From Haloplasmatales bacterium 4B (lineage in GTDB: Bacteria > Bacillota_I > Bacilli_A > Haloplasmatales > Haloplasmataceae), in contig NSKI01000004.1 in assembly GCA_003586005.1 (NCBI GenBank), positions 1 through 64,000 on the forward strand: DNA of 64,000 nucleotides. The letters run 5' to 3'. The translations under genes and the position numbers were made by a program. Under the pieces are notes generated by a model. The model saw nothing but the letters and a program-made list of their open reading frames with translations. It was not told where the DNA came from and made no database searches. Positions within the stretch are counted from its first letter, which is position 1; every line of letters starts with the position of its first letter. This document shows positions 14,868 through 30,951 of this stretch, piece by piece.

Positions 14868-17186
14868 ATGAAAAAAACATTGACTTTATTGTTACTAGTT
14901 TTAACTCTAGTTGTTATTTCTTCTTGTAAAAAAGACAAGAATGATACTACTACAACTGGAGGCAATACTACTACTACAGAAGACCCTGGTACAGTTGTCG
15001 ATGACACGTATACTTACGCATTTGCTAGTTTAGGGATGCCTAATAATTTTAACGTTCATATATGGGAAACTAATACCGATTCAATGATTATGAATTATAC
15101 TGAAATGGGTCTTTATGATTTTGTTTTAAATGAGGAAATGGACGGTTATGATATTATTTCAGAAATGGCAGCAGGTAATCCAGTAGACGTTACTTTAGAT
15201 TATGCTGAAAATACATTGTTTGATGTGCCAGATGATGCAGAAACAGGATATGCATTTAAGATTGCATTAAATGAAGATGCTAAATGGGCAAATGGTACAG
15301 TAATTAATGCTGACACTTATATTTATTCAATGCAACAATTATTAAATCCTGAAATGCAAAACTATCGTGCTGATGGTTATATTACAGGTACTTTAGTTAT
15401 TGATAATGCAGAAGAATATCTAAAACAAGGTCAATCAACATTTATTACTTTAGGTAAATATATGGAGACATTTGGTATTGGAACACTTGCAGAAGCAATT
15501 ACTCAAGCAACTACTGAAGATTTAACAACATATATTAACTGGGTCTATTCATTTGGAGATGATCTTTATTCTGATGATGAACCTGAAGATAAAGTAGTAG
15601 CAACTGATAAAACCTTGGCTGAACTTTATGCTGATTATAAGGCAGAAGTATTAAGACAAGGTTGGACTGATGAAGCTGGAATAGATGAATGGGTCTTAGA
15701 TGAATTATATGTTCAATATACATTCCCTGTATTAGATTGGGAAAATGTTGGATTAATTAAAACTGGCGAATATGAAATTACATTAGTTTTAGCTAAACCA
15801 ATTACTGATTTTTATTTAAAATACAATTTATCAAGTAACTGGATTGTATATGAAGATTTATATGAAGCAGGTAAAGTAACTATCGAAGGTGGTAGTGTAT
15901 CAACAAATTATGCTACTTCTGTAAGTACATATATGGCATATGGTCCGTATAAATTAGTAACATACCAAGATGACAAATTAATTGCTTTAACAAAAAATGA
16001 TGAGTGGTATGGCTATTCTGATATTAATCATGAAGGACAATTCCAAGCAACTGATATTGAAATTTCTATCCTCGCTGATCATAATACTACTTTACTTTCA
16101 TATTTAAGTGGAGATTTAGATGAAGTTGGTCTTACTCAAGAAGATGTGGATGAATTCAAGTTTAGCGAAAATTTATTATACGAACCAGAATCTTATTCAT
16201 CTAAGTTAACTTTCAACACTGATCCAGTCTTGCTTAAAGAACATGAAGATGCTGCAGGAAGCAATGTTGACAAAGAGATTTTTGCAAACATTAAATTCCG
16301 TGAAGCTATTTCATTGGCTTTAAATCGCCAAGACTTTGTTCAAACACAAACTGCTGGTTCACAAGCTACACTAGGATTATATAATAGTTTATATGTTTCA
16401 AATGTAGATACAGGTGAAATTTATAATACAACACAAGCATATGCTAATATTTTAAATAGAATTTATGGAACTGATTATCCTACCGGATATGATTTAGAGA
16501 AAGCTACTCAATTATTCCAAGAAGCTTATGATGAACAATTTGCTGCTGGAAAAATTGATGCTGATGATATAGTAGAAATAGAATTCTCTATTTATAAATT
16601 TGATAATGCATATACAGATAAAGTAATATTCCTTCAAAATGCATTAAACGATGCAACTTTTGGTACTGATCTTCAAGGTAGAATTATATTTAGTACTAGA
16701 ACAGATGCGAAGTATTATGATTCTGCTGAAAGAGGAGACTTTGATGTTATCTGGGCAACTTGGGGTGGAATGAGCATGGATCCATTCGGATTTATGCAAG
16801 TATATACTGTAAATGGTACGCATAATGAATATGGTTTTGACCCAGAAACTGAAACATTCACAATGGTAATTGATGGAACAGACGTTACAAAAACTTACTA
16901 TAATTGGTATATTGCATTAAATGAGGGTGAATATTCTGCTATGGAAGCTAGCTATGAACTAAGACTTGAAATTTTAGCTGAAATGGAATACAATATTTTA
17001 ATTCAATATAGAACAATTCCAGTTTATGCTAGAACATCTTTGGTAATGATATCTGATAAGATTAATTATGCTACAGATGAATTTGTTCCTCTCGTAGTAT
17101 TTGGTGGAATACGTTCTATGACATTTAACTTTACTGATGCTGAATGGGAAGATTATGCTTCTAATGAGATTGACTACACAGATTAA
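14868..17186 (+). CDS. oppA: Oligopeptide ABC transporter substrate-binding lipoprotein (first locus)
   Basis: A 772-residue extracellular lipoprotein of the OppA/DppA family (SBP_bac_5). The signal peptide ends in lipobox VISSC, so Cys20 is the likely lipid anchor, followed by a Thr-rich linker. The normal domain order is kept: an N-terminal half with KWANGTVINADTYIYS, then the C-terminal half beginning near NIKFREAISLALNRQDF. It is about 230 residues longer than a typical OppA (around 540), with acidic insertions in both halves. Strong AAGGAG ribosome site. It has its own promoter and terminator, upstream of oppBCDF, allowing a higher level than the permease. Confidence 0.93.
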   Translation: MKKTLTLLLLVLTLVVISSCKKDKNDTTTTGGNTTTTEDPGTVVDDTYTYAFASLGMPNNFNVHIWETNTDSMIMNYTEMGLYDFVLNEEMDGYDIISEMAAGNPVDVTLDYAENTLFDVPDDAETGYAFKIALNEDAKWANGTVINADTYIYSMQQLLNPEMQNYRADGYITGTLVIDNAEEYLKQGQSTFITLGKYMETFGIGTLAEAITQATTEDLTTYINWVYSFGDDLYSDDEPEDKVVATDKTLAELYADYKAEVLRQGWTDEAGIDEWVLDELYVQYTFPVLDWENVGLIKTGEYEITLVLAKPITDFYLKYNLSSNWIVYEDLYEAGKVTIEGGSVSTNYATSVSTYMAYGPYKLVTYQDDKLIALTKNDEWYGYSDINHEGQFQATDIEISILADHNTTLLSYLSGDLDEVGLTQEDVDEFKFSENLLYEPESYSSKLTFNTDPVLLKEHEDAAGSNVDKEIFANIKFREAISLALNRQDFVQTQTAGSQATLGLYNSLYVSNVDTGEIYNTTQAYANILNRIYGTDYPTGYDLEKATQLFQEAYDEQFAAGKIDADDIVEIEFSIYKFDNAYTDKVIFLQNALNDATFGTDLQGRIIFSTRTDAKYYDSAERGDFDVIWATWGGMSMDPFGFMQVYTVNGTHNEYGFDPETETFTMVIDGTDVTKTYYNWYIALNEGEYSAMEASYELRLEILAEMEYNILIQYRTIPVYARTSLVMISDKINYATDEFVPLVVFGGIRSMTFNFTDAEWEDYASNEIDYTD

Positions 17187-17202
17187 TATAATGCAGTTTT
17201 AG

Positions 17203-17246
17203 GTAAAATCCAAGAACAACCTAGTGCTGTTCTTGGATTTTGTTTA
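17203..17246 (+). terminator. Terminator after the first oppA
   Basis: AAAATCCAAGAACA paired with TGTTCTTGGATTTT, followed by a T-rich tail. It separates the binding-protein gene from oppB. Confidence 0.85.
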
Positions 17247-17302
17247 TTTAGTATTTTCTTAAATTTTGGTTCTATGATTATAAGTTGAAAATAGTAATGT
17301 TA

Positions 17303-17314
17303 ATAATGCATTAT
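17303..17314. promoter_or_regulatory. 12-bp palindrome, copy 1 (candidate operator)
   Basis: ATAATGCATTAT, a perfect palindrome, 61 bp upstream of an identical copy that overlaps the -10 box of the oppB promoter. Confidence 0.45.
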
Positions 17315-17339
17315 AAGGCTCCGCATATTAATTTAAGTG

Positions 17340-17368
17340 TTGAAATCAATTTACAGGAGAAATATAAT
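17340..17368 (+). promoter_or_regulatory. Sigma-A type promoter of the first oppBCDF operon
   Basis: TTGAAA, 17-bp spacer, consensus TATAAT. The -10 box overlaps the second copy of the 12-bp palindrome. Confidence 0.65.
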
Positions 17369-17375
17369 GCATTAT
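17364..17375. promoter_or_regulatory. 12-bp palindrome, copy 2 (candidate operator)
   Basis: Second exact copy of ATAATGCATTAT, covering the -10 region of the oppB promoter. Its position would allow repression by occlusion. Confidence 0.5.
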
Positions 17376-17467
17376 TTCTATTAAATTTAATTTTTCATTA
17401 TGAAATATAAGCTATTACAATTATCTTATTTAATATGGAATTTTTATTTGAAATAAGGAGTGAGCAT

Positions 17468-18433
17468 ATGGGAAAATATATTATAAAAAGGATTCTTTTA
17501 ATGTTGATGACATTCTTCATTATTATGACCTTTTGTTTTGTTTTAATTAGAATGTTACCATTTAATATTCCAGTTGCACCAGATTCTGACCACGAGTTTA
17601 AGATAAGAGCATTAAGGACTGCTTATGGGTTAGATAAACCAATAATCACACAATATGGAATATTCTTAAGGAAACTATTTACCGAATTTGATTGGGGATT
17701 TTCAACAAAATATAAATACTTAGCACCCGTAGCAGAAATTATTTATGATAGATTAGGTCCGACAATGCTTGTTAACTTTTATTCTTTTTTTATCTCAATA
17801 CCTCTTGGGATAATTTTTGGTGTTATGGCTGCTCTTAGGAAAAATAAATTACCTGATTATTTAATAACTGTTGGAGTTATGTTGTTTATTTCAGTACCTT
17901 CTTATGTATATGCCTTTTTAGTGCAATATGTATTTGGTTACAAACTAGGCATTTTTCCTCTGACGATGGAAGCGGGTTATGCCTATTTTTCATGGTCAAT
18001 GTTTATGTCGATAGCATTGCCTATAATGGCATTGTCTTTTGGTCCTATAGCGACTTTGACACGATATACAAGAGCAGAATTAACTGAAGTATTGACTAGT
18101 GATTTTATGCTATTAGCACGAACTAAGGGACTTTCGAGAAGACAAGCTATTTATAGACATGGCTTTAGAAACTCATTAGTTGTAGTAATGCCAATTATTA
18201 TAGGTAATTTCATTGGTATTTTAGGCGGATCTTTAATAATTGAAAAAATTTTTTCAATTCCAGGGATTGGTAAATTATACTTAGCATCAATTGAATCGCT
18301 TGACTATAACTTATTTTTAGCTATAGCAATGTTCTATGTAGCAATAGGATTACTTGCTGTGCTATTTGTCGATTTAAGTTATGGAATCGTTGACCCACGT
18401 ATTCGAATAGGAGGTAGGAAAAGTGAAAGCTAG
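17468..18433 (+). CDS. oppB: Oligopeptide ABC transporter permease OppB (first locus)
   Basis: A 321-residue inner-membrane permease of the binding-protein-dependent transport family. It has the OppB N-terminus (GKYIIKRILLMLMTFFIIMT), six membrane segments, and the EAA-type loop for ATPase contact near RTKGLSRRQAIYRHGFRNS. It starts at ATG 17468 after AAGGAG; an in-frame ATG 33 bases upstream lacks a ribosome site. It overlaps oppC by 11 bases. Confidence 0.95.
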   Translation: MGKYIIKRILLMLMTFFIIMTFCFVLIRMLPFNIPVAPDSDHEFKIRALRTAYGLDKPIITQYGIFLRKLFTEFDWGFSTKYKYLAPVAEIIYDRLGPTMLVNFYSFFISIPLGIIFGVMAALRKNKLPDYLITVGVMLFISVPSYVYAFLVQYVFGYKLGIFPLTMEAGYAYFSWSMFMSIALPIMALSFGPIATLTRYTRAELTEVLTSDFMLLARTKGLSRRQAIYRHGFRNSLVVVMPIIIGNFIGILGGSLIIEKIFSIPGIGKLYLASIESLDYNLFLAIAMFYVAIGLLAVLFVDLSYGIVDPRIRIGGRKSES

Positions 18434-19901
18434 CAATTTTCCAGAAATTCCAGATGATAAATTTCAATTTGTTCAACAAAACGAAAAAATTTATGATGAG
18501 AAATTTAAAACAAAGCCAATAGGATATTTCAAAGATGCATGGCATCGTTTTAGAAAAAGTGTTGGTTCAGTAATAGCAGCCTTTGTATTATTCATTATTA
18601 TACTATTTGCAATTTTTGGCCAAATGATGACAGATTTTGATATGAGTTATAGTGACATGCACTTTAAGAACGCTTTGCCAAAAAGTGAATATTTTTCTCG
18701 ATTTGGTTTTTGGGATGGTACAAAAAAAGTTGATTTGAATGAGAAACAGTATAAATTTTATACAGAAGAAATTCCGGAAGCTGGATATATACTAGAAGAC
18801 CTCGGAACGTATGAGAAATTTGATTTAAAAAAGAACAGAAATGTAACTTATTATAAAGTTAGAGTTAATACATACAAATATGAAGGATTTATTTATAAAT
18901 TAGTATCCGGAAAAGAATTAACTGAAATTAAAGCTTATGAGAAAGAATCGGGTATTCAACTGATGTATCCTTTATTAAAAGATTTCATTTCTTCTAATGA
19001 TGCAAATGGAGATAATATTTTAATTAAAGATGGAGGACCAGTTAATGAAGCTTTTCGTTCTGGGGATCAAAAAATTGAGCCAGGACCATTTAGAATTCAG
19101 GGAGAACCAGTTTATGAAGTTGATCGTTCTGGGAAAGGAACTCAATATTCAATTAGGGTTTTAAACTATGAGAATTTCGTTTTTGAAAATGGACATGAAC
19201 CAAGTTTTATATTTGGAAGTAATTCCCATGGGCAAGATATTTTTGTTCGTTTAGCAACAGGTGCACGTTTGTCACTGTTACTAGGTTTAGCTGTGGCTGT
19301 TATCAATATTACAATTGGTGTTTTTTATGGTGCAGTGGAAGGATATTACGGATCAACTTCAGACTTATTAATGCAACGATTAGTTGAAATATTATCTGCC
19401 CTACCATTTATTGTACTCGTAACACTGTTCCAATTGCATTTATCTGACAAATTAGGGGTGCTTCCGACTTTACTTTTTGCGTTTGTTGTAACTGGATGGA
19501 TTGGTACGTCGAATACAGTTCGACAGCAGTTCTATCGTTATAAGAATCGAGAGTATGTTTTAGCTGCTAGAACATTAGGTGCTAAAGATCATAGATTAAT
19601 TTTTCGGCATATCTTGCCAAATGCTATTGGACCGATAATTACAGCTACAGTTCTAGTGATTCCAGGAGTCATATTCACTGAATCTATGCTCTCATATTTA
19701 AATATAGTAGACTTGTCGTCATCTCCAACATTAACTAGTATTGGATCGCTTTTATCTGACGGACAAGCTAGTATTAGAACAAATCCACACATTATTACAT
19801 TTCCTGCAGTTTTTATCTCAATTTTAATGATATCTTTTAACGTGTTTGGAAATGGATTAAGAGATGCATTTAATCCTTCCTTAAGAGGAGTTGAGGAATA
19901 G
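18423..19901 (+). CDS. oppC: Oligopeptide ABC transporter permease OppC with enlarged external domain (first locus)
   Basis: A 492-residue OppC-type permease; usual members are about 300 residues. A first membrane segment (about 43-66) is followed by an outside region of roughly 210 residues (about 67-278), then the normal core with five membrane segments and the EAA loop AARTLGAKDHRLIFRHILPN. The outside insertion is polar and rich in Lys, Glu and Tyr. GTG start with an AGGAGG ribosome site inside the end of oppB. The second OppC in the window has a smaller insertion of the same placement. Confidence 0.92.
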   Translation: MKASNFPEIPDDKFQFVQQNEKIYDEKFKTKPIGYFKDAWHRFRKSVGSVIAAFVLFIIILFAIFGQMMTDFDMSYSDMHFKNALPKSEYFSRFGFWDGTKKVDLNEKQYKFYTEEIPEAGYILEDLGTYEKFDLKKNRNVTYYKVRVNTYKYEGFIYKLVSGKELTEIKAYEKESGIQLMYPLLKDFISSNDANGDNILIKDGGPVNEAFRSGDQKIEPGPFRIQGEPVYEVDRSGKGTQYSIRVLNYENFVFENGHEPSFIFGSNSHGQDIFVRLATGARLSLLLGLAVAVINITIGVFYGAVEGYYGSTSDLLMQRLVEILSALPFIVLVTLFQLHLSDKLGVLPTLLFAFVVTGWIGTSNTVRQQFYRYKNREYVLAARTLGAKDHRLIFRHILPNAIGPIITATVLVIPGVIFTESMLSYLNIVDLSSSPTLTSIGSLLSDGQASIRTNPHIITFPAVFISILMISFNVFGNGLRDAFNPSLRGVEE

Positions 19902-19902
19902 A

Positions 19903-21993
19903 ATGGAAAAAATTTTAGAAGTTAAAAATTTAAAAATTTCATTTAGAACAAATAATGGGAATGTAAAGGCTGTTCGTGATATTAATTTTGATTTATACAA
20001 GGGCGAAACCCTTGGTATAGTTGGTGAGTCAGGTTCTGGTAAATCAGTCACAGCACGTGCTATTCTTGGGATATTAGCAGGAAATAGAATCATCGATGGT
20101 GGGGAATTATATTTTGATGGGCTTGATTTATTAAGGATTTCGGAGAGTACTTTCTATGATATCCGGGGATCTAGAATTTCAATGATCTATCAAGATCCAC
20201 TATCAAGTTTAAATCCTATTATGAGAATTGGGAAGCAAATAACTGAGGCTATGGTTTTAAAGTCAAAGACCTCACATAGAGTAGGTAGACAAAACATAAG
20301 GATTTTTAATAAATCAATATTGTACAATTTAAATAGTTTATCTTATAAAGATAGTAAAGACCTCAAAGAAATAGTAAAAATATATCGTAAGGTTTTAATT
20401 CAATCTGCAAAACTGGAATTAGATTATAAGCATATTAAAGATAATTTAGTAAGTGCTGAAAAGATATTGAGTGAAAATATTATGATTGTTGAGACTCAAG
20501 GTAATAATATTGAATCTATTTCTACTACTTTTAGTCAATTTGCAAAAAGAATTTATCGTAGTATTAATAAATCACTTAAAAAGAGTAATAGTTTGGTATT
20601 CAAGAACACAGATGAAGTTAAAATGCTTATAAATACATACAGAAAAAAGAAAATTGAATTTACTGAATTTAAAACTAAATTAACATCAACTCTAAATTCA
20701 ATACATGAAGAAATTAAAACTGTATTAGCTATAGAAAAACCAGATTTTTTCTCAATTGCTATAGCAAATAAAACTTATATAGATGCAGGAAAAGAATTAA
20801 AATTGAGTGAAGAAGAAAATGTACAAGTGTTTCTTGACAAGTATTTTAAATATCTTAAAAAAGCTGTTCAAAATTCACGAAGGAAATCTGTTAATCAGAA
20901 AAAGGCTTTAGTTGAATATCTGTTAGAAAATCAAAAAATATTTGATGAAACATTTACTAAATCTGAATCAAAAAGACTTATTAAGCAAGTAAATAAACAA
21001 ATTCATCAAGCTGCTGATTTATTATCGCCTGGTAAAGATAAATTTTTTAATGCTTTAATATCTCAATTAGGAGTACATTTTAATGACTATTTTGAAACAA
21101 AGATTTCAATAAAAAAAGATTCAAAAAAATCCAAAAATAGTACAAATCAATTTACTGATTGTTCTGAAAAATTGGCTAAAATTAATGAGTACTACTGCAA
21201 GTTAATTGAATCAATCAATGAAAATATTCATGGGAAGATTGATTTAGATGAAGTTGTTAATAACTTAGATGTAGATTACAAAGAACATGTAAGTGATTAT
21301 GTAAATGTTGTATCAATTTTTGAAGCTAAACAAAATGCATTATCATTAATGAGAGAAGTAGGTATAAAAGATCCTGAGAAACGATATAAACAATATCCAT
21401 TTCAATTTTCAGGCGGTATGCGACAAAGAATAGTTATTGCGATAGCGATTAGTTTTAATCCGGATATCCTTATTTGTGATGAACCAACAACAGCTTTAGA
21501 TGTTACAATTCAATCACAAATTCTTGAATTAATTAATAAAATTAAAAATGAACATAATCTGTCTGTAATTTTTATAACACACGACTTGGGTGTTATTGCT
21601 AATATGGCTGATAGAATTGCAGTTATGTATGCGGGTAAGATAGTAGAGTATGGAAATGTAGATGAAATCTTTTATAATCCAAGGCATCCATACACTTGGG
21701 CACTTCTTTCTTCAATGCCAGATTTAGATACAAAAGAAAAGCTTGAATCTATTCCAGGTACACCCCCAAATATGATTCATCCACCTATAGGTGATGCATT
21801 TGCGGTTAGAAATAAATATGCAATGAAGATTGACTTTGAAAAACAGCCACCATTGTTTAAAATTTCTGAGACGCACTATGCTGCAACATGGTTATTACAT
21901 CCAAAAGCACCTAAGGTAGAAAAACCTAGAATCGTTACAGAGCGTATTGAACGTGTAAAGAAACAGTTAGGGGTGAATCTCAATGGTGAATAA
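19903..21993 (+). CDS. oppD: Oligopeptide ABC transporter ATPase OppD with very large insertion (first locus)
   Basis: A 696-residue ATPase; OppD proteins are normally about 330-350. Walker A GESGSGKS is at 41-48 and the Q-loop YQDPLSSLNP has Gln97, but the signature SGGMRQR begins only at residue 503. In the second OppD here the same distance is 59 residues, so about 345 residues are inserted in the helical subdomain. The insertion is Lys/Asn/Ser-rich and looks largely helical. Walker B, LICDEPTTALD, the H-loop FITHDLG and the C-terminal OppD motif are intact, so it should be active. ATG 19903 is preferred; an upstream in-frame TTG lacks a ribosome site. It overlaps oppF by 11 bases. Confidence 0.93.
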   Translation: MEKILEVKNLKISFRTNNGNVKAVRDINFDLYKGETLGIVGESGSGKSVTARAILGILAGNRIIDGGELYFDGLDLLRISESTFYDIRGSRISMIYQDPLSSLNPIMRIGKQITEAMVLKSKTSHRVGRQNIRIFNKSILYNLNSLSYKDSKDLKEIVKIYRKVLIQSAKLELDYKHIKDNLVSAEKILSENIMIVETQGNNIESISTTFSQFAKRIYRSINKSLKKSNSLVFKNTDEVKMLINTYRKKKIEFTEFKTKLTSTLNSIHEEIKTVLAIEKPDFFSIAIANKTYIDAGKELKLSEEENVQVFLDKYFKYLKKAVQNSRRKSVNQKKALVEYLLENQKIFDETFTKSESKRLIKQVNKQIHQAADLLSPGKDKFFNALISQLGVHFNDYFETKISIKKDSKKSKNSTNQFTDCSEKLAKINEYYCKLIESINENIHGKIDLDEVVNNLDVDYKEHVSDYVNVVSIFEAKQNALSLMREVGIKDPEKRYKQYPFQFSGGMRQRIVIAIAISFNPDILICDEPTTALDVTIQSQILELINKIKNEHNLSVIFITHDLGVIANMADRIAVMYAGKIVEYGNVDEIFYNPRHPYTWALLSSMPDLDTKEKLESIPGTPPNMIHPPIGDAFAVRNKYAMKIDFEKQPPLFKISETHYAATWLLHPKAPKVEKPRIVTERIERVKKQLGVNLNGE

Positions 21994-23257
21994 TGAAAAA
22001 GGAATAATATTAAAAGTTTCTCGTTTGAAACAATATTTTAAAATCGGTAAGTCGTATTTAAAAGCTGTTCATGATGTTAGTTTTGAAGTTAAAAAAGGCG
22101 AAAACTTTGGTATTGTAGGTGAGTCTGGGTGTGGAAAAACCACAATTGGACGTTCAATTATTAAGTTATATAAAATAACTTCAGGTGATATATTTTTTAA
22201 AGGTCAAAGAATTTCAGCTGGTACAAGATGGAATGATAAAGAAATAAAACGCACTCGGATTCGGACTTACGAAGAGATTAAACGATTAAAAAATGAGTTC
22301 AAAACAGATTCTAGTAAATTATCAAAACAAGAACTTGAACAAAAAATTTCAAGTCTAAAAGCAGAGGCTAAAAACGCTATTAGTGAACAATTAGAGCTTA
22401 TTAGAAAAGCTAAATATGATAATAAATATTATAGTAGTTCCTATATTGATGCTATAATTGAAAAGATTCACAATAAATATGAACAGAAAATTAAAGAGGC
22501 AAATACTAAGCAAGATGAAGAAGCATTAAAAAAACTAAATAAGGAAATGGATAAGGAAATTAAATTAGCAAAAAAAGAAAACATAATGACAAAAATGCAA
22601 ATGGTTTTCCAAGATCCAATAGCATCAATAAATCCACGGATGACTGTTCGTGAAATTATCGCGGAAGGATTAAAAATTCAGGGGGTTAGGGATAAGAAAT
22701 ATATTGATAGACGTGTATATGAAATGCTAGAGCTAGTTGGTCTTGTACCTGAGCATGCTTCTCGTTATCCTCATGAATTTAGTGGAGGGCAACGCCAAAG
22801 AATTGGTGTAGCTCGTGCCCTTATAATGAATCCTGAGTTAATTATCGCTGATGAACCAGTTTCTGCTCTTGACGTTTCTGTCCAAGCACAAATTATAAAT
22901 CTTTTAAGTGATTTACGAGAGAAATTTGGAATAACAATTATGTTTATTGCCCATGATTTATCAGTTATTAAATATTTTTGTGATCGTATTTGTGTTATGT
23001 ATTATGGAAATATGGTTGAATTAGCTCCAGCTGATGAGTTATTTAAAAACCCACTTCATCCGTATACAAAATCATTATTATCTGCAATTCCGGTTCCAGA
23101 TCCTCATTTTGAAAAACAAAGGGAAAGAATAATTTATAATGCTGTACTAGAACATGATTATTCTGTAGATAAACCTAAATTACGTGAAATTACTGAAGAA
23201 CATTTTATACTATGTAATGAAGCTGAGTTTCAAAAATATAAGAAACAATTAAAGTAA
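21983..23257 (+). CDS. oppF: Oligopeptide ABC transporter ATPase OppF with insertion (first locus)
   Basis: A 424-residue OppF-type ATPase. Walker A GESGCGKT starts at residue 46, the Q-loop Gln is near 210, and the signature FSGGQRQRIG and IIADEPVSALD follow. The Walker A to Q-loop distance is about 100 residues longer than in ordinary family members. The extra part is highly charged and probably coiled coil. It ends with the normal C-terminal HPYTKSLLSAIPVPDP region. It pairs with OppD as the heterodimeric motor. Confidence 0.94.
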   Translation: MVNNEKGIILKVSRLKQYFKIGKSYLKAVHDVSFEVKKGENFGIVGESGCGKTTIGRSIIKLYKITSGDIFFKGQRISAGTRWNDKEIKRTRIRTYEEIKRLKNEFKTDSSKLSKQELEQKISSLKAEAKNAISEQLELIRKAKYDNKYYSSSYIDAIIEKIHNKYEQKIKEANTKQDEEALKKLNKEMDKEIKLAKKENIMTKMQMVFQDPIASINPRMTVREIIAEGLKIQGVRDKKYIDRRVYEMLELVGLVPEHASRYPHEFSGGQRQRIGVARALIMNPELIIADEPVSALDVSVQAQIINLLSDLREKFGITIMFIAHDLSVIKYFCDRICVMYYGNMVELAPADELFKNPLHPYTKSLLSAIPVPDPHFEKQRERIIYNAVLEHDYSVDKPKLREITEEHFILCNEAEFQKYKKQLK

Positions 23258-23746: not shown

Positions 23747-24172
23747 TTAATAAAAATATATTAATAATGAAAGTACAATGGTAATAGCTAAATGGGTGAA
23801 TGAAGTAACAAGTAAAATGGGCATGTTTTTCCAAATTTTACTTTTCCGATATTCAACAAAGTCATAAATACTATCTATTTTAACTTTTTCACCATCAGCA
23901 TTTATTAGTCCAGCATCTTTTTCGTCTGATTTCCAATATTTAGGTAAGAAGAATAAAACATATTTTTTTGTCTTATGCCAACTGTACCGAAAAACATCAA
24001 AACCGCCACGATCTAATACTACTTTAAATAATAAAACTGAAGTAAATAAACTTGAAGTAATAAACCAACTATCAATAAACCTTTTATAAGTAATTTCGCC
24101 AAAAACAGTTACCATAATAGCAATCCCTAGTATGAATAATGATAAAACAAGAAAGTTCTTCTTAATATTCAT
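23747..24172 (-). CDS. DUF3899-like membrane protein (paralogue)
   Basis: A 141-residue protein with the same plan as the DUF3899-like gene on the other strand: two N-terminal hydrophobic segments, D-S-W-F-I-T-S-S-L-F at the matching position, a basic loop ending in EYRKSKI, and a last membrane segment at the C-terminus. The two look like diverged copies arranged tail to tail. Start ATG at 24170-24172 behind GAGAGG; the GTG nine bases upstream is part of the ribosome site. Function unknown. Confidence 0.62.
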   Translation of the reverse strand: MNIKKNFLVLSLFILGIAIMVTVFGEITYKRFIDSWFITSSLFTSVLLFKVVLDRGGFDVFRYSWHKTKKYVLFFLPKYWKSDEKDAGLINADGEKVKIDSIYDFVEYRKSKIWKNMPILLVTSFTHLAITIVLSLLIYFY

Positions 24173-24488
24173 TTTTTTCACCTCTCATATATGATTAGCA
24201 TTATAACAAAAAAAATTATAAAAGTGAATGCTTTATAGGTAATTGCATAAAAAATTGAAAAGTGTCGAAAATAAAATTGATAATTTAAATAAAATTATTT
24301 CGAAATTATGAAAAAAATAATATAAAAATATGTAGTATCTCAAGTAAGTAATTCCTGTAAAGTTATTTGTAAATTTTCACATGTTTAGATATTTTTTTCG
24401 TGAATAACCCCCTTTTTTATAAAATAACTGTATAAACTCTAATAGTAGTTATATTTTTTAAAATATATGTCTTTTCATTAAAAAAATC
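24173..24488. other. Intergenic region of about 315 bases
   Basis: Very AT-rich. Apart from the reverse-strand ribosome site at its left end and the oppA promoter just beyond its right end, I see no open frame, RNA fold or convincing operator. Confidence 0.6.
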
Positions 24489-24517: not shown

Positions 24518-24576
24518 TACAACAAGTATCAAATAGGGGATACTATAAAAATAAAATTTTAGGAGGAAGAGAACCT

Positions 24577-26421
24577 ATGAAGAAAGTCTTAAGTATTTTA
24601 TTTGTCTTAACACTTGCGATTTTACTTGCTGGTTGTAAAGGCGATAAAGAAATTTCTGGTAGTGGAATGATTCAAGACGTTAACGTACGTCGCGCAATCT
24701 CAATGGCTATTGATAAAGCTTATTATACAGATACTATTTTAGCAAACGAATCATACCCTGCAGATTATTATATCCCATATAATTTTTATGGTGGTATTGG
24801 CGATAATGGTGAAGGTGTAGATTTTCGTGTTAGAGCTGAACAAGTATTTGGCGATTTCTTACCATTCACAAAATATGACATGCCAGCAGGTAGTGCTGAA
24901 TCACAATCACCTTCTGGATATAATCATTACAATATAGAAGAAGCTAAACAACTTTGGGAAGACTCTAGAAAACGTTTTGGTATTGAAAAAGATGAAACTG
25001 TAGTCTTTAAAATGCTAGTTCATAATACTGCATCTTGGACTTCATTATATGACCATGTAAAAGCTGAAATTGAAAAGAACTTAACTGGTACTAAAATTAA
25101 AATTATTAGTGTAACTTTCGGAGAAAAACTTGATAAAGCGCCTACTGGTGATTTCGATATTTTATTCTCTGGTTGGGGACCTGACTACATGGATCCAATT
25201 ACATATTTAGATTTATTTGTTACTGGTAATGGACATAATAATATTCATTATAGTAATCCTGAATATGATTATCTAATCAACCAAGCTAAAATTGGAGCAT
25301 TCCAAGGTCAAGAAAGATTAGATGCATATGTAAGAGCAGAAAAAATCTTACTTCAAGATGATGTAGCTTTACTTCCAATCTTCCAATCTAATTCTGTAGG
25401 TTTAAGAAGAACTCAACTTCAAAACTTTTATACACAATCTGTTGGTCCTGACTATATCTTAAAATGGGTTTCTTGGGATACAACTGATGATGCATGGGCT
25501 GCTAAAGAAGCTGACTTAAAAGCTGCTAGAATTGATGGAGATGAAACAGTTTTAAAATTGTTAGAAACTTCAAAAATTCCTGATATGGCTTCATTTACTA
25601 CAACTGACCAAGTGTCATTCTATAATTTGGCACAAATAAATGAAGGTTTAATGGTTGCTGGAAATCCTCAAAGTAATGAACAATACCTACCTGGTATGGC
25701 TGAAAGTTATACTGTAAGTGAAGATGGTAAAGTTTATACTTTCACATTAAGAGAAGACCAACCATGGGTTAAATCAGATGGCACTCAATACAATAACGAA
25801 GTAGTTACAGCTGAAGATTTCGTATTTGCTTGGAGAAAATTAGCAGATCCTAGAGTAGCTAGTGAATATTCATATTTATTAGAAACAATTGGTGTTAAAG
25901 GTTGGGAAATTGCATATGAAGATGTAACTGACATGACTGATGCTGAAATTGATACTGAACTAGCTAAATTAGGTGTAGAAGCAACTGGCGAATTTGAATT
26001 AACAGTAACATTAAATACTGCTGCTGATTATTTCTTAGGTATGATGTCATTCCCTTCATTCTATCCTGTAAACGAAGCATTCTATACATCTTTAGGTGAA
26101 GATTATGGTAAAACTCTAACTCCTGAGAACTTACTATATAATGGTGCATATTACTTGAGTAATTGGGATAATAATGGTCATACACTACAAAAGAGTGATC
26201 TTTACTGGGATAAAGATACAGTAAGTATTGATAAAGTAATTTACGAATTAGTTGAATCTGCAGAACCAGAAGTACAAGTACAAATGTACTTAGATGGTGA
26301 TATTGACTCTGTTATATTACGAACAGGTGCTTTAGTAGAAACATATGGTGCTCGTAGTGATGTTCGTACTACTGGATCAACTACAGCTTGGTACTTAGAA
26401 TTTAACATTAATAATCACTAA
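24577..26421 (+). CDS. Circularly permuted oligopeptide-binding lipoprotein (second locus)
   Basis: A 614-residue OppA-family lipoprotein with its two halves in reversed order. Residues 1-20 are a signal peptide with lipobox LLAGC (Cys20). Residues about 30-297 are the usual C-terminal half: DVNVRRAISMAIDKAYY, the GWGPDYMDPITYLDLF block, and the typical end VGPDYILKW. A linker (298-324) follows. Residues 325-614 are the usual N-terminal half: LLETSKIPDMAS, GMAESYTVSEDGKVYTFTLR, ENLLYNGAYYLSNW, ending WYLEFNINNH. In ordinary OppA that last strand runs straight into DVRVRQA-type sequence, so the protein is cut at that point and rejoined at the old termini. Strong AGGAGG before ATG 24577; strong promoter and terminator. 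Confidence 0.9.
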   Translation: MKKVLSILFVLTLAILLAGCKGDKEISGSGMIQDVNVRRAISMAIDKAYYTDTILANESYPADYYIPYNFYGGIGDNGEGVDFRVRAEQVFGDFLPFTKYDMPAGSAESQSPSGYNHYNIEEAKQLWEDSRKRFGIEKDETVVFKMLVHNTASWTSLYDHVKAEIEKNLTGTKIKIISVTFGEKLDKAPTGDFDILFSGWGPDYMDPITYLDLFVTGNGHNNIHYSNPEYDYLINQAKIGAFQGQERLDAYVRAEKILLQDDVALLPIFQSNSVGLRRTQLQNFYTQSVGPDYILKWVSWDTTDDAWAAKEADLKAARIDGDETVLKLLETSKIPDMASFTTTDQVSFYNLAQINEGLMVAGNPQSNEQYLPGMAESYTVSEDGKVYTFTLREDQPWVKSDGTQYNNEVVTAEDFVFAWRKLADPRVASEYSYLLETIGVKGWEIAYEDVTDMTDAEIDTELAKLGVEATGEFELTVTLNTAADYFLGMMSFPSFYPVNEAFYTSLGEDYGKTLTPENLLYNGAYYLSNWDNNGHTLQKSDLYWDKDTVSIDKVIYELVESAEPEVQVQMYLDGDIDSVILRTGALVETYGARSDVRTTGSTTAWYLEFNINNH

Positions 26422-26470
26422 GAATGTAGCAAAATTGGATATTAAAATAAGTACAAAATAAAAGTATATA

Positions 26471-26508
26471 AAGATTACTATAAGTAAGTGCTTATAGTAA
26501 TCTTTTTG
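26471..26508 (+). terminator. Terminator after the second oppA
   Basis: AAGATTACTATAAG paired with CTTATAGTAATCTT, followed by Ts. It separates the lipoprotein gene from oppB. Confidence 0.88.
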
Positions 26509-26626: not shown

Positions 26627-27670
26627 ATGTTGAGGTATGTTTGGAACCGAATCTTAATGATTTTTGTGACTTTGTTTTTAATATTAACAATTAACTTTCT
26701 TTTATTATATTTAATGCCCGGCTCTCCATTCCAGAACCCTCGTTTAACTCCATCTCAGCGCGAGAGAATAGAAGATAAGTATGGTTTAAATGATCCCGTG
26801 CTAGTGCAGTATGGACGTTATATGTATAAAGTATCAAAACTTGACTTTGGTGGTACAATAGCTACCAACACTTATGATGATATTTTTGAAGAGTATATTA
26901 TCGATAGGTTACCTTTAACCGCAAAAATTGGTGGTATAGCTCTTATAATTGGGACTGTGATTGGTATAACTTTTGGGGCATTAGCCGCAATTAGGCGAAA
27001 CTCATGGCTGGATAATTCAGTAACTGTATTAGGGGTAATAGGAGTATCCATTCCGTCTTTTGTATTTGCAGCCATCTTGCAAGAGGTTTTCGCGATAAAT
27101 TTAGATTGGTTGCCTTTGTTTTATCGAGAAGCTAATCCAGATATAGGACACTCATTAAAAGACCAAAATTTAGGAATGATCATGCCAATTATAGCTCTTT
27201 CAGTTTTACCAATTGCATCTATCATGCGATATATGAGAACAGAATTAGTAGAGGTATTTAGTTCAGATTATATTCTCTTAGCACAAGCTAAAGGTTTATC
27301 TAAACCTGCTGTTATATTTAAACATGCGATTAGAAATGCCTTAATTCCTGTAATTACAATTATTGGGCCAATGGCAATTAATCTTATCGCTGGATCATTA
27401 GTTATAGAACGTTTTTTTAATATACCAGGATTATCAAACAGTTTAGTAACATTTACTTTAGCTAAAGAGACTTATGCTACATTAGCAATAAATTTCTTTT
27501 ATAGCTTTATGTATGTTACTGTAATATTAATTGTTGATATCTTATATGGTGTAATTGACCCACGTATAAGATTAGCATCAAATTCTAAACTTGGTTTAAT
27601 TGGGAAGTTGATTAAAAGTATTAAGAGAAAATTTCAAAGTGATAATGCAGGGGGTGAGGTAAATGAATAA
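26627..27670 (+). CDS. oppB: Oligopeptide ABC transporter permease OppB (second locus)
   Basis: A 347-residue OppB-type permease: N-terminal YVWNRILMIFVTLFLIL, the LMPGSPF motif, six membrane segments, and the EAA-type loop LAQAKGLSKPAVIFKHAIRN. It begins after a strong AAGGAGG. It overlaps oppC by eight bases. The sequence is clearly distinct from the first-locus OppB, so the two loci are diverged paralogues rather than a recent duplication. Confidence 0.95.
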   Translation: MLRYVWNRILMIFVTLFLILTINFLLLYLMPGSPFQNPRLTPSQRERIEDKYGLNDPVLVQYGRYMYKVSKLDFGGTIATNTYDDIFEEYIIDRLPLTAKIGGIALIIGTVIGITFGALAAIRRNSWLDNSVTVLGVIGVSIPSFVFAAILQEVFAINLDWLPLFYREANPDIGHSLKDQNLGMIMPIIALSVLPIASIMRYMRTELVEVFSSDYILLAQAKGLSKPAVIFKHAIRNALIPVITIIGPMAINLIAGSLVIERFFNIPGLSNSLVTFTLAKETYATLAINFFYSFMYVTVILIVDILYGVIDPRIRLASNSKLGLIGKLIKSIKRKFQSDNAGGEVNE

Positions 27671-28841
27671 TATGAAAAATGACTTTTCAAAAATTAAAAT
27701 TGATAAATCAAAGTTAAAATTAGTTTCAAATCGTATTGAAGAGTCTGAAGAAATTAGTGGTGTTAGTTTAGGTTATTGGAAAGATTCTTTTAGACGCTTA
27801 CTTCATAATAAAATTGCTACTATAAGTTTGATTTTGATTGGATTCATTTTTATATTTTCTATATTTATAACATCAACTACACCTCATTCAACTGTAATTG
27901 AACCACAAATTAAAGATCCTGACACAGGTCAAATGATAAGTAAAAAAAGTTTAACCAGTGTACCTCCTAGAATTAAAGGTCTAGAATGGTTAGGTTGGTT
28001 TGATGGCAGAGTTGATAAACTTTTGCCTAAGATTGCTTTAGAAAATGAAGTTAAGTATCCTAAAGATACATATGAAATAGTTGAATGTGAAGAAGGTAAC
28101 ACTGGTAAAGAGATGTGTACTATTGATTTAGATGTATATAAGCAAAATGGAATTGAGCAATTGTACTTTACATTTGGAACAGATCAATTAGCACGCGATA
28201 ACTGGACTAGGGTTTGGGCTGGAGTTCGTAACTCGTTAGCAATAGGTTTATTAGCTGCTGTATTTGATATTGTGATGGGTGTTATTTATGGATCAATATG
28301 TGGATTTTACGGTGGTACAAAAGTAGATAATATTATGATGCGTTTTATTGAAATTTACGGAAGTATTCCTAGTATCGTGTTACTGATCCTATTATTATCA
28401 TTTATGGACCGAGGATTTGGAGCGCTAATTATAGCTTTAGGTTTAACTGGTTGGATTGGTGTTGCCCGAATGGTAAGGGCCCAGTACTTAAGGTACAGGG
28501 AGCATGATTTTGTTTTAGCTTCTAGGACAATCGGAGCTAGTACTAAACGGCTGATATTTAAACATATATTTCCGAATATCATTGGTCAGATTGTTATCCT
28601 AGCAACATTTAGTATTCCCGCTGCAATTTTCTATGAAGCTTCATTATCCTTCATAGGATTAGGTTTACCAACTGATCAAGCTTCACTTGGGACTTTAATA
28701 AATAACGGTATAACTCAAAGGTCTGTTAGTGCATACTTGTTATGGATTCCGACTATTGTCTTATCAATTGTCATGCTAGCAATTAACCTATTAGCTAACG
28801 GTTTAAGGGATGCCTTAGATCCACGGTTAAGAGGACGATAG
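27663..28841 (+). CDS. oppC: Oligopeptide ABC transporter permease OppC (second locus)
   Basis: A 392-residue OppC-type permease. A cytoplasmic N-terminus, one membrane segment (about 51-71), and an outside insertion of about 115 residues precede the five-segment core with EAA loop ASRTIGASTKRLIFKHIFPN. Longer than the usual 300 residues but shorter than the first-locus OppC. The external part contains two Cys (in CEEGNTGKEMC) that could form a disulfide. Confidence 0.94.
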   Translation: MNNMKNDFSKIKIDKSKLKLVSNRIEESEEISGVSLGYWKDSFRRLLHNKIATISLILIGFIFIFSIFITSTTPHSTVIEPQIKDPDTGQMISKKSLTSVPPRIKGLEWLGWFDGRVDKLLPKIALENEVKYPKDTYEIVECEEGNTGKEMCTIDLDVYKQNGIEQLYFTFGTDQLARDNWTRVWAGVRNSLAIGLLAAVFDIVMGVIYGSICGFYGGTKVDNIMMRFIEIYGSIPSIVLLILLLSFMDRGFGALIIALGLTGWIGVARMVRAQYLRYREHDFVLASRTIGASTKRLIFKHIFPNIIGQIVILATFSIPAAIFYEASLSFIGLGLPTDQASLGTLINNGITQRSVSAYLLWIPTIVLSIVMLAINLLANGLRDALDPRLRGR

Positions 28842-28853
28842 GAAGGAGATATC

Positions 28854-29906
28854 ATGGAGAAATTATTAGAAGTTAAAAATTTAAATGTTACATTTGAAAC
28901 TCACGGTGGAACAGTTCAAGCTATTCGTGATGTTAGTTTTGATTTACATCGAGGAGAAACACTGGCAGTAGTTGGCGAGTCTGGATCTGGTAAATCTGTT
29001 ATGACTAAATCTGTTATGCGTTTACTAGCTGATAATGGAAATATTAAACATGGAGAAATATTATATCATTATGAAGATGGTACAATTGTTGATATTGCAA
29101 AATTAAGAGATGGTGAAATGCATAAAATTCGTGGTGCTGAAATTGCCATGGTGTTCCAAGATCCAATGACTTCATTAAATCCAACAATGACAATTGGTAA
29201 ACAAATTATGGAACCAATTATGAAGCATCAAAATCTATCAAAAAAAGATGCACGACAAAAAGCAATTGAATTAATTTCAATGGTAAAAATAGATCGACCT
29301 ACAAAACGAATGAAACAATATCCACATGAATTTTCTGGTGGAATGCGTCAACGTATAGTTATCGCAGTAGCACTTGCTTGTAATCCAAATATCTTAATTT
29401 GTGATGAGCCTACAACTGCGCTAGATGTTACTATCCAAGCTCAGATAATTGACTTAATTAAAGAACTACAACAACAAACAAAAGCTGCAGTAATATTTAT
29501 TACTCATGATTTAGGTGTTGTCGCAAATATTGCCGATCGTGTTGCAGTAATGTATGCTGGTAAAATTTGTGAAATTGGAACAAGTTCTGATGTATTCTAT
29601 ACACCAGCTCACCCATATACATGGGGATTGCTTGCATCTAAACCAAATACAGATAACTTAGGTGAAAAACTATATTCTATTCCAGGAACTCCACCTAACC
29701 TTTTAGATCCACCTAAAGGTGATGCTTTCGCCCTTCGTAGTAACTATGCTTTAGAGTTAGATTTCGAAGAGCAGCCACCAATGTTTAAAATATCTGATAC
29801 TCATTACGCAGCAACATGGTTGTTACATCCAGATGCACCTAAAGTAGAACCACCTAAAGTTGTTCAAAGACGTGGTGCAAAAAAAGGGGTGACTAATAAT
29901 GGCTAA
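28854..29906 (+). CDS. oppD: Oligopeptide ABC transporter ATPase OppD (second locus)
   Basis: A 350-residue ATPase of ordinary OppD length. Walker A GESGSGKS at 41-48, Q-loop Gln102, signature SGGMRQR from residue 161, LICDEPTTALD Walker B, H-loop FITHDLG, and the C-terminal oligopeptide/dipeptide transporter domain (IPGTPPNLLDPPKGDAF). It shows what the first-locus OppD looks like without its insertion; outside that insertion the two match closely to the C-terminus (ETHYAATWLLHP versus DTHYAATWLLHP). It overlaps oppF by eight bases. Confidence 0.97.
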   Translation: MEKLLEVKNLNVTFETHGGTVQAIRDVSFDLHRGETLAVVGESGSGKSVMTKSVMRLLADNGNIKHGEILYHYEDGTIVDIAKLRDGEMHKIRGAEIAMVFQDPMTSLNPTMTIGKQIMEPIMKHQNLSKKDARQKAIELISMVKIDRPTKRMKQYPHEFSGGMRQRIVIAVALACNPNILICDEPTTALDVTIQAQIIDLIKELQQQTKAAVIFITHDLGVVANIADRVAVMYAGKICEIGTSSDVFYTPAHPYTWGLLASKPNTDNLGEKLYSIPGTPPNLLDPPKGDAFALRSNYALELDFEEQPPMFKISDTHYAATWLLHPDAPKVEPPKVVQRRGAKKGVTNNG

Positions 29907-30951
29907 AAATGAAAATAAAGAGTTAATATTAGATGTTAGAAATTTAAAGCAGTATTTTAAAATAAAAGGCGGAGTCATAGTTAAAGCCGTAGATGATATA
30001 TCGTTTAAAATTTATAAAGGGGAGACTTTCGGTTTAGTTGGTGAATCTGGTTCAGGTAAATCAACTACTGGTAGAAGTATTATAAAGTTGTATGAACCTA
30101 CTGGAGGAGAGGTTTACTACAAAGGTGAACGTATAACAGTCGGCCAACATTCTATTGATGAGTGGAAAGAACAAATAAAAATTTTAAAAAAAGAGTTAAA
30201 ACTTGGAAAAACTGAAAATGCTGAAATAATAGCTAAGTTAGAAGAAAGAATTAAAACTGCATCTAATGATAATATCGTAAAACCAGATTTGAGACAATCA
30301 ATGCAAATGATTTTCCAAGATCCGATGGCAAGTTTAAATCCAAGAATGCGTGTAATAGATATCATAGCTGAAGGATTAGATGTCCATCATTTATTTGAAA
30401 CTGAAGAAGAACGAAAAGAAAAAGTAATGAAATTATTAGATTTAGTAGGACTAAGCGAAGACCATGCTTATAGGTATCCACATGAATTTTCAGGTGGACA
30501 ACGTCAACGTATTGGGATTGCTCGTGCACTAATTACTAATCCAGATTTTATTATAGCTGATGAGCCAATTTCGGCATTAGATGTATCGATTCAAGCTCAA
30601 GTTGTTAATTTATTAAATGATTTAAAAGCTGATTTCGGTTTAACATACTTGTTTATTGCGCATGATTTATCTATGGTTCATTACATATCAGATCGTATTG
30701 CAGTTATGCATTTGGGACGAATTGTTGAATTAGGGACTTCTGAAGATATTAATTATCACCCTATTCATCCATATACTCGTTCATTATTATCTGCAATTCC
30801 ACAACCTGATCCTGATTATGAACACTCTCGTAAACGTATTGATTATAATAAAGCTGAAGTAGATTATTACGCAGGAACATGGACAGAAGTTACACCAGGA
30901 CATTTCGTATTAGGTACAGCAGAAGAAATCTCTAAATGGACAAGTAAATAA
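29899..30951 (+). CDS. oppF: Oligopeptide ABC transporter ATPase OppF (second locus)
   Basis: A 350-residue OppF-type ATPase. Walker A GESGSGKS starts at residue 48, then a short charged insertion of about 30 residues, the Q-loop near 140, signature FSGGQRQRIG, IIADEPISALD, and a normal C-terminus with HPYTRSLLSAIPQPDPDYE. Last gene of the second opp operon and followed by a terminator. Confidence 0.97.
   Translation: MAKNENKELILDVRNLKQYFKIKGGVIVKAVDDISFKIYKGETFGLVGESGSGKSTTGRSIIKLYEPTGGEVYYKGERITVGQHSIDEWKEQIKILKKELKLGKTENAEIIAKLEERIKTASNDNIVKPDLRQSMQMIFQDPMASLNPRMRVIDIIAEGLDVHHLFETEEERKEKVMKLLDLVGLSEDHAYRYPHEFSGGQRQRIGIARALITNPDFIIADEPISALDVSIQAQVVNLLNDLKADFGLTYLFIAHDLSMVHYISDRIAVMHLGRIVELGTSEDINYHPIHPYTRSLLSAIPQPDPDYEHSRKRIDYNKAEVDYYAGTWTEVTPGHFVLGTAEEISKWTSK

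Follow-up and report, generated by a model that had tools for sequence, protein, structure and literature searches.

Peptide uptake by ABC importers depends on substrate-binding proteins of the OppA/DppE type (PF00496; solved structures 5kzt, 6npo and 8ay0), whose normal order of halves is also seen in the proteins of L008, L047 and L007 in the f11 group. A described departure from the native chain order in a substrate-binding protein of another family is TpMglB-2 (Tp0684) of Treponema pallidum, a natural permutant of 'Type Ic/Cluster Bc', which like the protein treated here is the lipid-anchored binding protein of an ABC importer and which keeps binding and closing; it differs in binding glucose, in its cluster B fold and in that its permuted segment lies within one lobe (PMC4990184). 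Circular permutation among substrate-binding proteins has also been reported, with CPSARST, for glycine-betaine-binding and molybdate-binding proteins, though these cases are remote (<24% identity), structure-based and devoid of close before-and-after pairs (PMC2395249). Finally, AliC forms a domain-swapped dimer in which the swap occurs at the loop between lobe 1 and lobe 2, so that the lobes can be linked differently, but this is a crystal dimer of a protein with normal gene order (PMC11192437).

The window, i.e. the whole analysed stretch of 64,000 nt of contig NSKI01000004.1 (GCA_003586005.1, Haloplasmatales bacterium 4B), contains a gene that a sequence-only reading had described as a circularly permuted OppA lipoprotein without known precedent. 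The latter held for family 5, of which a full-text search of the open-licence literature found no permuted member described, but not for binding proteins at large, as other families have published permutants. The window protein shares with the canonical type the homology of both halves, the transporter context and the conserved GWxxD motif, whereas its halves are exchanged, its lipidated N-terminus sits at lobe 2 and one hinge crossover is apparently cut. Compared with TpMglB-2, which gains a hinge crossover (PMC4990184), the window protein would lose one; moreover, PF00496 is the only Pfam match, which does not place the window protein among the cluster B sugar-binding proteins.

Order of the halves in the window protein

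The gene is a single open frame from the ATG at 24577 to the stop codon at 26419-26421 and encodes 614 residues (Table 1). The signal peptide MKKVLSILFVLTLAILLAGC and the lipobox LAGC, with the cysteine as residue 20, were recognized by eye. Among solved structures 5kzt is the best match, aligning in three stretches, each with its own significant score: residues 321-610 correspond to 13-278 of 5kzt, residues 32-73 to 288-329 and residues 112-296 to 339-522. The same exchange appears against the Pfam model PF00496 (model length 368), where residues 32-221 match positions 213-367 and residues 370-612 match positions 2-209, at a score of 181.7 bits against a cut-off of 32.4, which makes the protein a significant SBP_bac_5 match. 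The order is thus signal, C-half, linker, N-half, i.e. a circular permutation, in which no part is duplicated and none is absent except loops. With both halves aligned separately, the permuted order and the completeness of the halves were borne out, while the finding named in advance as fatal, a match of the first 300 or so residues to the N-terminal half of OppA, did not occur, as residues 32-296 match the C-half of 5kzt.

Table 1. Features of the permuted gene and its surroundings in the window
Feature	Position	Strand	Evidence
Divergent DUF3899-like membrane protein	23747..24181	-	PF13038, 20.2 vs cut-off 23.4 bits; synteny
Ribosome-binding site AGGAGG, 10 bases 5' of ATG 24577	24561..24566	+	Sequence
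Permuted OppA-type lipoprotein gene, 614 aa	24577..26421	+	ORF; PF00496 in two stretches; PDB alignments
Signal peptide and lipobox (Cys20)	24577..24636	+	By eye; Cys20 unchanged across four permuted relatives
Canonical C-terminal half, residues 30-298	24664..25470	+	PF00496 213-367; 5kzt 290-522
New linker, former C-terminus to former mature N-terminus	25468..25548	+	Alignments
Canonical N-terminal half, residues 325-614	25549..26418	+	PF00496 2-209; 5kzt 13-278
Terminator-like hairpin of 15 pairs in the oppA-oppB gap	26470..26505	.	1 found vs 0.6 expected in shuffles
oppB, permease	26627..27670	+	NCBIfam Opp3B best
oppC, permease	27663..28841	+	NCBIfam Opp3C best
oppD, ATPase	28854..29906	+	NCBIfam OppD best
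oppF, ATPase	29899..30951	+	NCBIfam OppF best

The C-half comprises lobe 2 (domain III), the second hinge strand and the C-terminal part of domain I, while the N-half runs from domain I through domain II back to domain I and ends with the first hinge strand, WYLEFNINNH. The cut, expected near the border of domains I and III, falls at the crossover between lobe 1 and lobe 2, as judged from the family's domain borders. The order of halves, though usual in the SBP_bac_5 family, lies outside its homology definition; as the window protein departs from the N-to-C order of the solved chains, it is classed here as a permuted variant within SBP_bac_5 and not as one of its canonical members. A chance match is excluded by E = 7e-78 together with the same order in orthologues, and a chimera of two paralogues is ruled out, N-half and C-half giving the same relatives. 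AlphaFold models had unusably low pLDDT values, 34 with one input sequence and 39 with two, and a search of viral contigs for relatives to deepen the alignment returned none; the fold is thus taken from homology, and the hinge geometry from published OppA-family structures. W200 and D203 fall in invariant columns of the conserved GWxxD motif (alignment A7). In AliB, W500 and D503 contact the N-terminus of the peptide, and W200 and D203 correspond to these family residues, by which the amino terminus of the peptide is bound.

Regarding expression, the predicted ribosome site was recovered, whereas the 'strong promoter' is unproven, promoter-like sites being no commoner than in shuffled sequence (16 versus 14.4 +/- 3.8). 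The terminator stands as a hairpin, but not as one that is set apart from the shuffles. The permuted gene adjoins its own oppBCDF genes (26627-30951), as the earlier reading had it, which identifies an Opp-type ABC importer; the NCBIfam matches are the best for each gene yet remain under the curated cut-offs. Within this operon the permuted protein is the sole binding protein.

The window contains another opp operon (14868-23257), headed by a second family-5 lipoprotein of 772 aa (14868-17186), which is of normal order and very divergent, on a long branch. In the ATPases of that operon (19891-21993 and 21983-23257), 700 and 424 aa in length, the Q-loop region is separated from the signature motif by long charged inserts; inserts are also present in the OppD copies of L032 and L033 (458 and 467 aa). 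The OppC permeases of both operons (18423-19901, 492 aa; 27663-28841, 392 aa) are enlarged by inserts that follow their first membrane helix and may form external domains of the kind described for AmiC.

Permuted and normal relatives

Among eight genomes of the window's order, G003 and G006, which represent two other genera of the same family, carry a permuted gene whose product is colinear with the window protein from residue 1 to 614 (52% and 50% identity, respectively), the G006 copy being located on a 3.2-Mb contig. In these two relatives the check proposed by the sequence-only reading, for the same order in related genomes, was thus positive. In all three proteins the C-half begins shortly after the lipobox, and the C-terminus STTAWYLEFN(I/V)xNH is conserved across the three genera. 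In each case the gene lies between the DUF3899-like gene and oppBCDF. The former also marks the orthologous locus in G017, a member of another family of the class, where the matching arrangement includes a protein of normal order that belongs to f11, the normal-order group branching as sister to the Haloplasmataceae permutants. This normal-order gene in the orthologous locus indicates that the Haloplasmataceae gene was re-threaded in place. A scan of public genome contigs matched the G003 copy only, and the window's own genome contains no second copy at comparable similarity, the only further match being weak (E = 2.6e-5) and falling in the 772-aa family-5 protein.

The uniqueness implied by the sequence-only reading did not hold, for family-5 permutants recur in related lineages. 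In a search of 395 genomes of the class, with fetched frames classified by half-models and followed up by family searches, three types of cut were encountered. Type A, the cut of the window protein, was also found in G009 and in nine genomes of genus g49; it lies in the hinge loop between lobe 1 and lobe 2, at a nearly identical position in all three groups. Type B is cut within the C-half after GNNDAQ(L/F)G and occurs in G037, G367, G478, G514 and G517; PDB alignment confirmed it (residues 133-588 to 21-450 and 61-123 to 458-520 of 8are). In type C, represented by the one-contig genome G021, the cut lies at an earlier point of the C-half, and this type was likewise confirmed (residues 230-555 to 62-380 and 53-197 to 392-541 of 6npo). 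The type C gene (L214:7495-9168) heads an oppBCDF operon of its own, and in G009 the new C-terminus of the permuted protein is extended by an acidic repeat tail (STDDESTDDE...; L034:9133-9253). A first census of the fetched frames, a sample biased by the searches, counted 90 frames of normal and 13 of permuted order, besides one partial frame. A junction query that joined C-end to N-start and included sequences of known permutants, so that more divergent ones could escape it, was crossed by a single frame free of stops in 7 of the 395 genomes, with scores clearly apart from one-sided matches; the window genome constitutes an eighth case, its long linker splitting the match in two. Linker length differs among the permuted relatives.

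Both orders coexist in genus g49, where the permuted gene is present in nine genomes and the normal gene in about twelve. The normal-order gene of G710 (L210:5627-7282) and the permuted one of G060 (L064:6748-8340) are 75-79% identical and occupy the same locus, in which the binding protein and oppBCDF follow a nitroreductase, a protein of 211 residues and a divergent ABC protein of 1128 residues. G710 is placed within the permuted clade (support 94/94 and 83/88), while a single permuted g49 clade is not rejected (AU p = 0.112); the position of G710, if right, would imply either that normal order was regained or that permutation arose twice.

Probable origin and working of the permuted proteins

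The most likely origin is an in-frame tandem duplication, which would create the order signal-N-C-N-C, from which trimming of both ends, removing the leading N-half and the trailing C-half, would leave signal-C-linker-N. In g49 the signal peptides of permuted and normal sister proteins align with each other, and in G009 the linker reads as DFSTAGIEE, the old C-tail, followed by SSGETSK, which resembles the old spacer behind the lipobox; both features fit duplication followed by trimming, though an N-C-N-C intermediate was not found among the genomes searched. A split of the gene in two, with later fusion of the parts in the opposite order, would give the same end product and is a published model (PMC2395249), but is rather unlikely given that split-gene relatives were not seen and that the linkers resemble direct joins of C-tail to N-spacer.

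In AliD, lobe 1 consists of domains I and II and lobe 2 of domain III, with the border near 296/297, and in EppA two antiparallel hinge strands join the lobes. On this template the type A cut would sever the first of the two covalent hinge crossovers between the lobes. Each lobe would thereby become continuous in sequence, the severed hinge strand forming the new C-terminus, and the lipid anchor would shift from lobe 1 to lobe 2, while the protein may still close on the peptide between the lobes. The AliC domain swap uses the same loop, which suggests that a cut there is tolerated.

The window gene most probably encodes a naturally permuted, lipid-anchored family-5 (cluster C) peptide-binding protein serving the downstream OppBCDF, of which it is likely the receptor. 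That the permuted gene is decaying, or was repurposed and no longer serves peptide uptake, could be argued from the presence of another family-5 protein, which heads a separate opp operon, but is very unlikely in view of the intact frame, binding motif and operon conserved across three genera and the lack of any other binding protein within the operon of the permuted gene. It is further opposed by the low dN/dS of the closest type-B pairs, 0.08 for G514/G517 and 0.095 for G367/G478, which reflects purifying selection; for the window orthologues, dS near or beyond saturation allows no firm dN/dS.

In maximum-likelihood trees of proteins re-ordered to the canonical order, five order changes are needed, all of them forced by well-supported branches. 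Accordingly, family-5 permutation apparently arose five times independently, with three cut points, the hinge-loop cut being used three times; since type C is one long-branched sequence, the main support for this fifth origin is that its cut is unique. A careful tree, which left out the long type-C row, gave 100/100 for the clades joining each type-A group to its normal relatives. Trees of the N-half and the C-half recovered the same sister groups, except for type B monophyly, which the N-half tree left unresolved, and show that both halves of the permuted proteins share one ancestry. One ancient permutation underlying all type-A proteins, with the normal orders among them as reversions or losses, would account for the nearly identical cut in one hinge loop, and the normal gene inside the permuted g49 clade suggests that reversion may be possible. 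Nevertheless, such a history is even less probable than a decaying gene, as each type-A group is nested among different normal genes and the AU test rejects a single type-A clade (p = 2.5e-5) as well as the pairings of Haloplasmataceae with g49 (7e-5) and with G009 (1.4e-7). An assembly artefact, in which pieces of a normal oppA were wrongly joined in what is a 77-contig draft, has next to no probability when judged by independent assemblies and synteny, because the G003 and G006 assemblies agree, both the C-terminus and the new N-terminus are conserved in sequence across relatives and the genome offers no comparable second copy to misjoin.

Meaning for the family

The family-5 permutants are apparently new with respect to the known permuted binding proteins of other families, and their independent recurrences are unusually many. 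A further notion, which is improbable, holds that family-5 proteins of this Bacilli group have been re-threaded repeatedly, sometimes reversibly as in G710, and that a tether at lobe 2 was selected, all five new N-termini lying at or inside this lobe, because lobe 2 would be the first to bind the peptide. While natural circular permutation is usually inferred from structures of remote relatives, here close before-and-after pairs share a locus, with an identity of about 77% inside a single genus. Together with the repeated cut in the hinge loop, these pairs permit direct tests of the origin of permutation, of folding, hinge motion and tethering, and of reversion. Since linear domain models omit the order of halves, the finding matters for annotation as well as for sensor design, and it indicates that evolution can re-thread a large binding protein without losing the gene.
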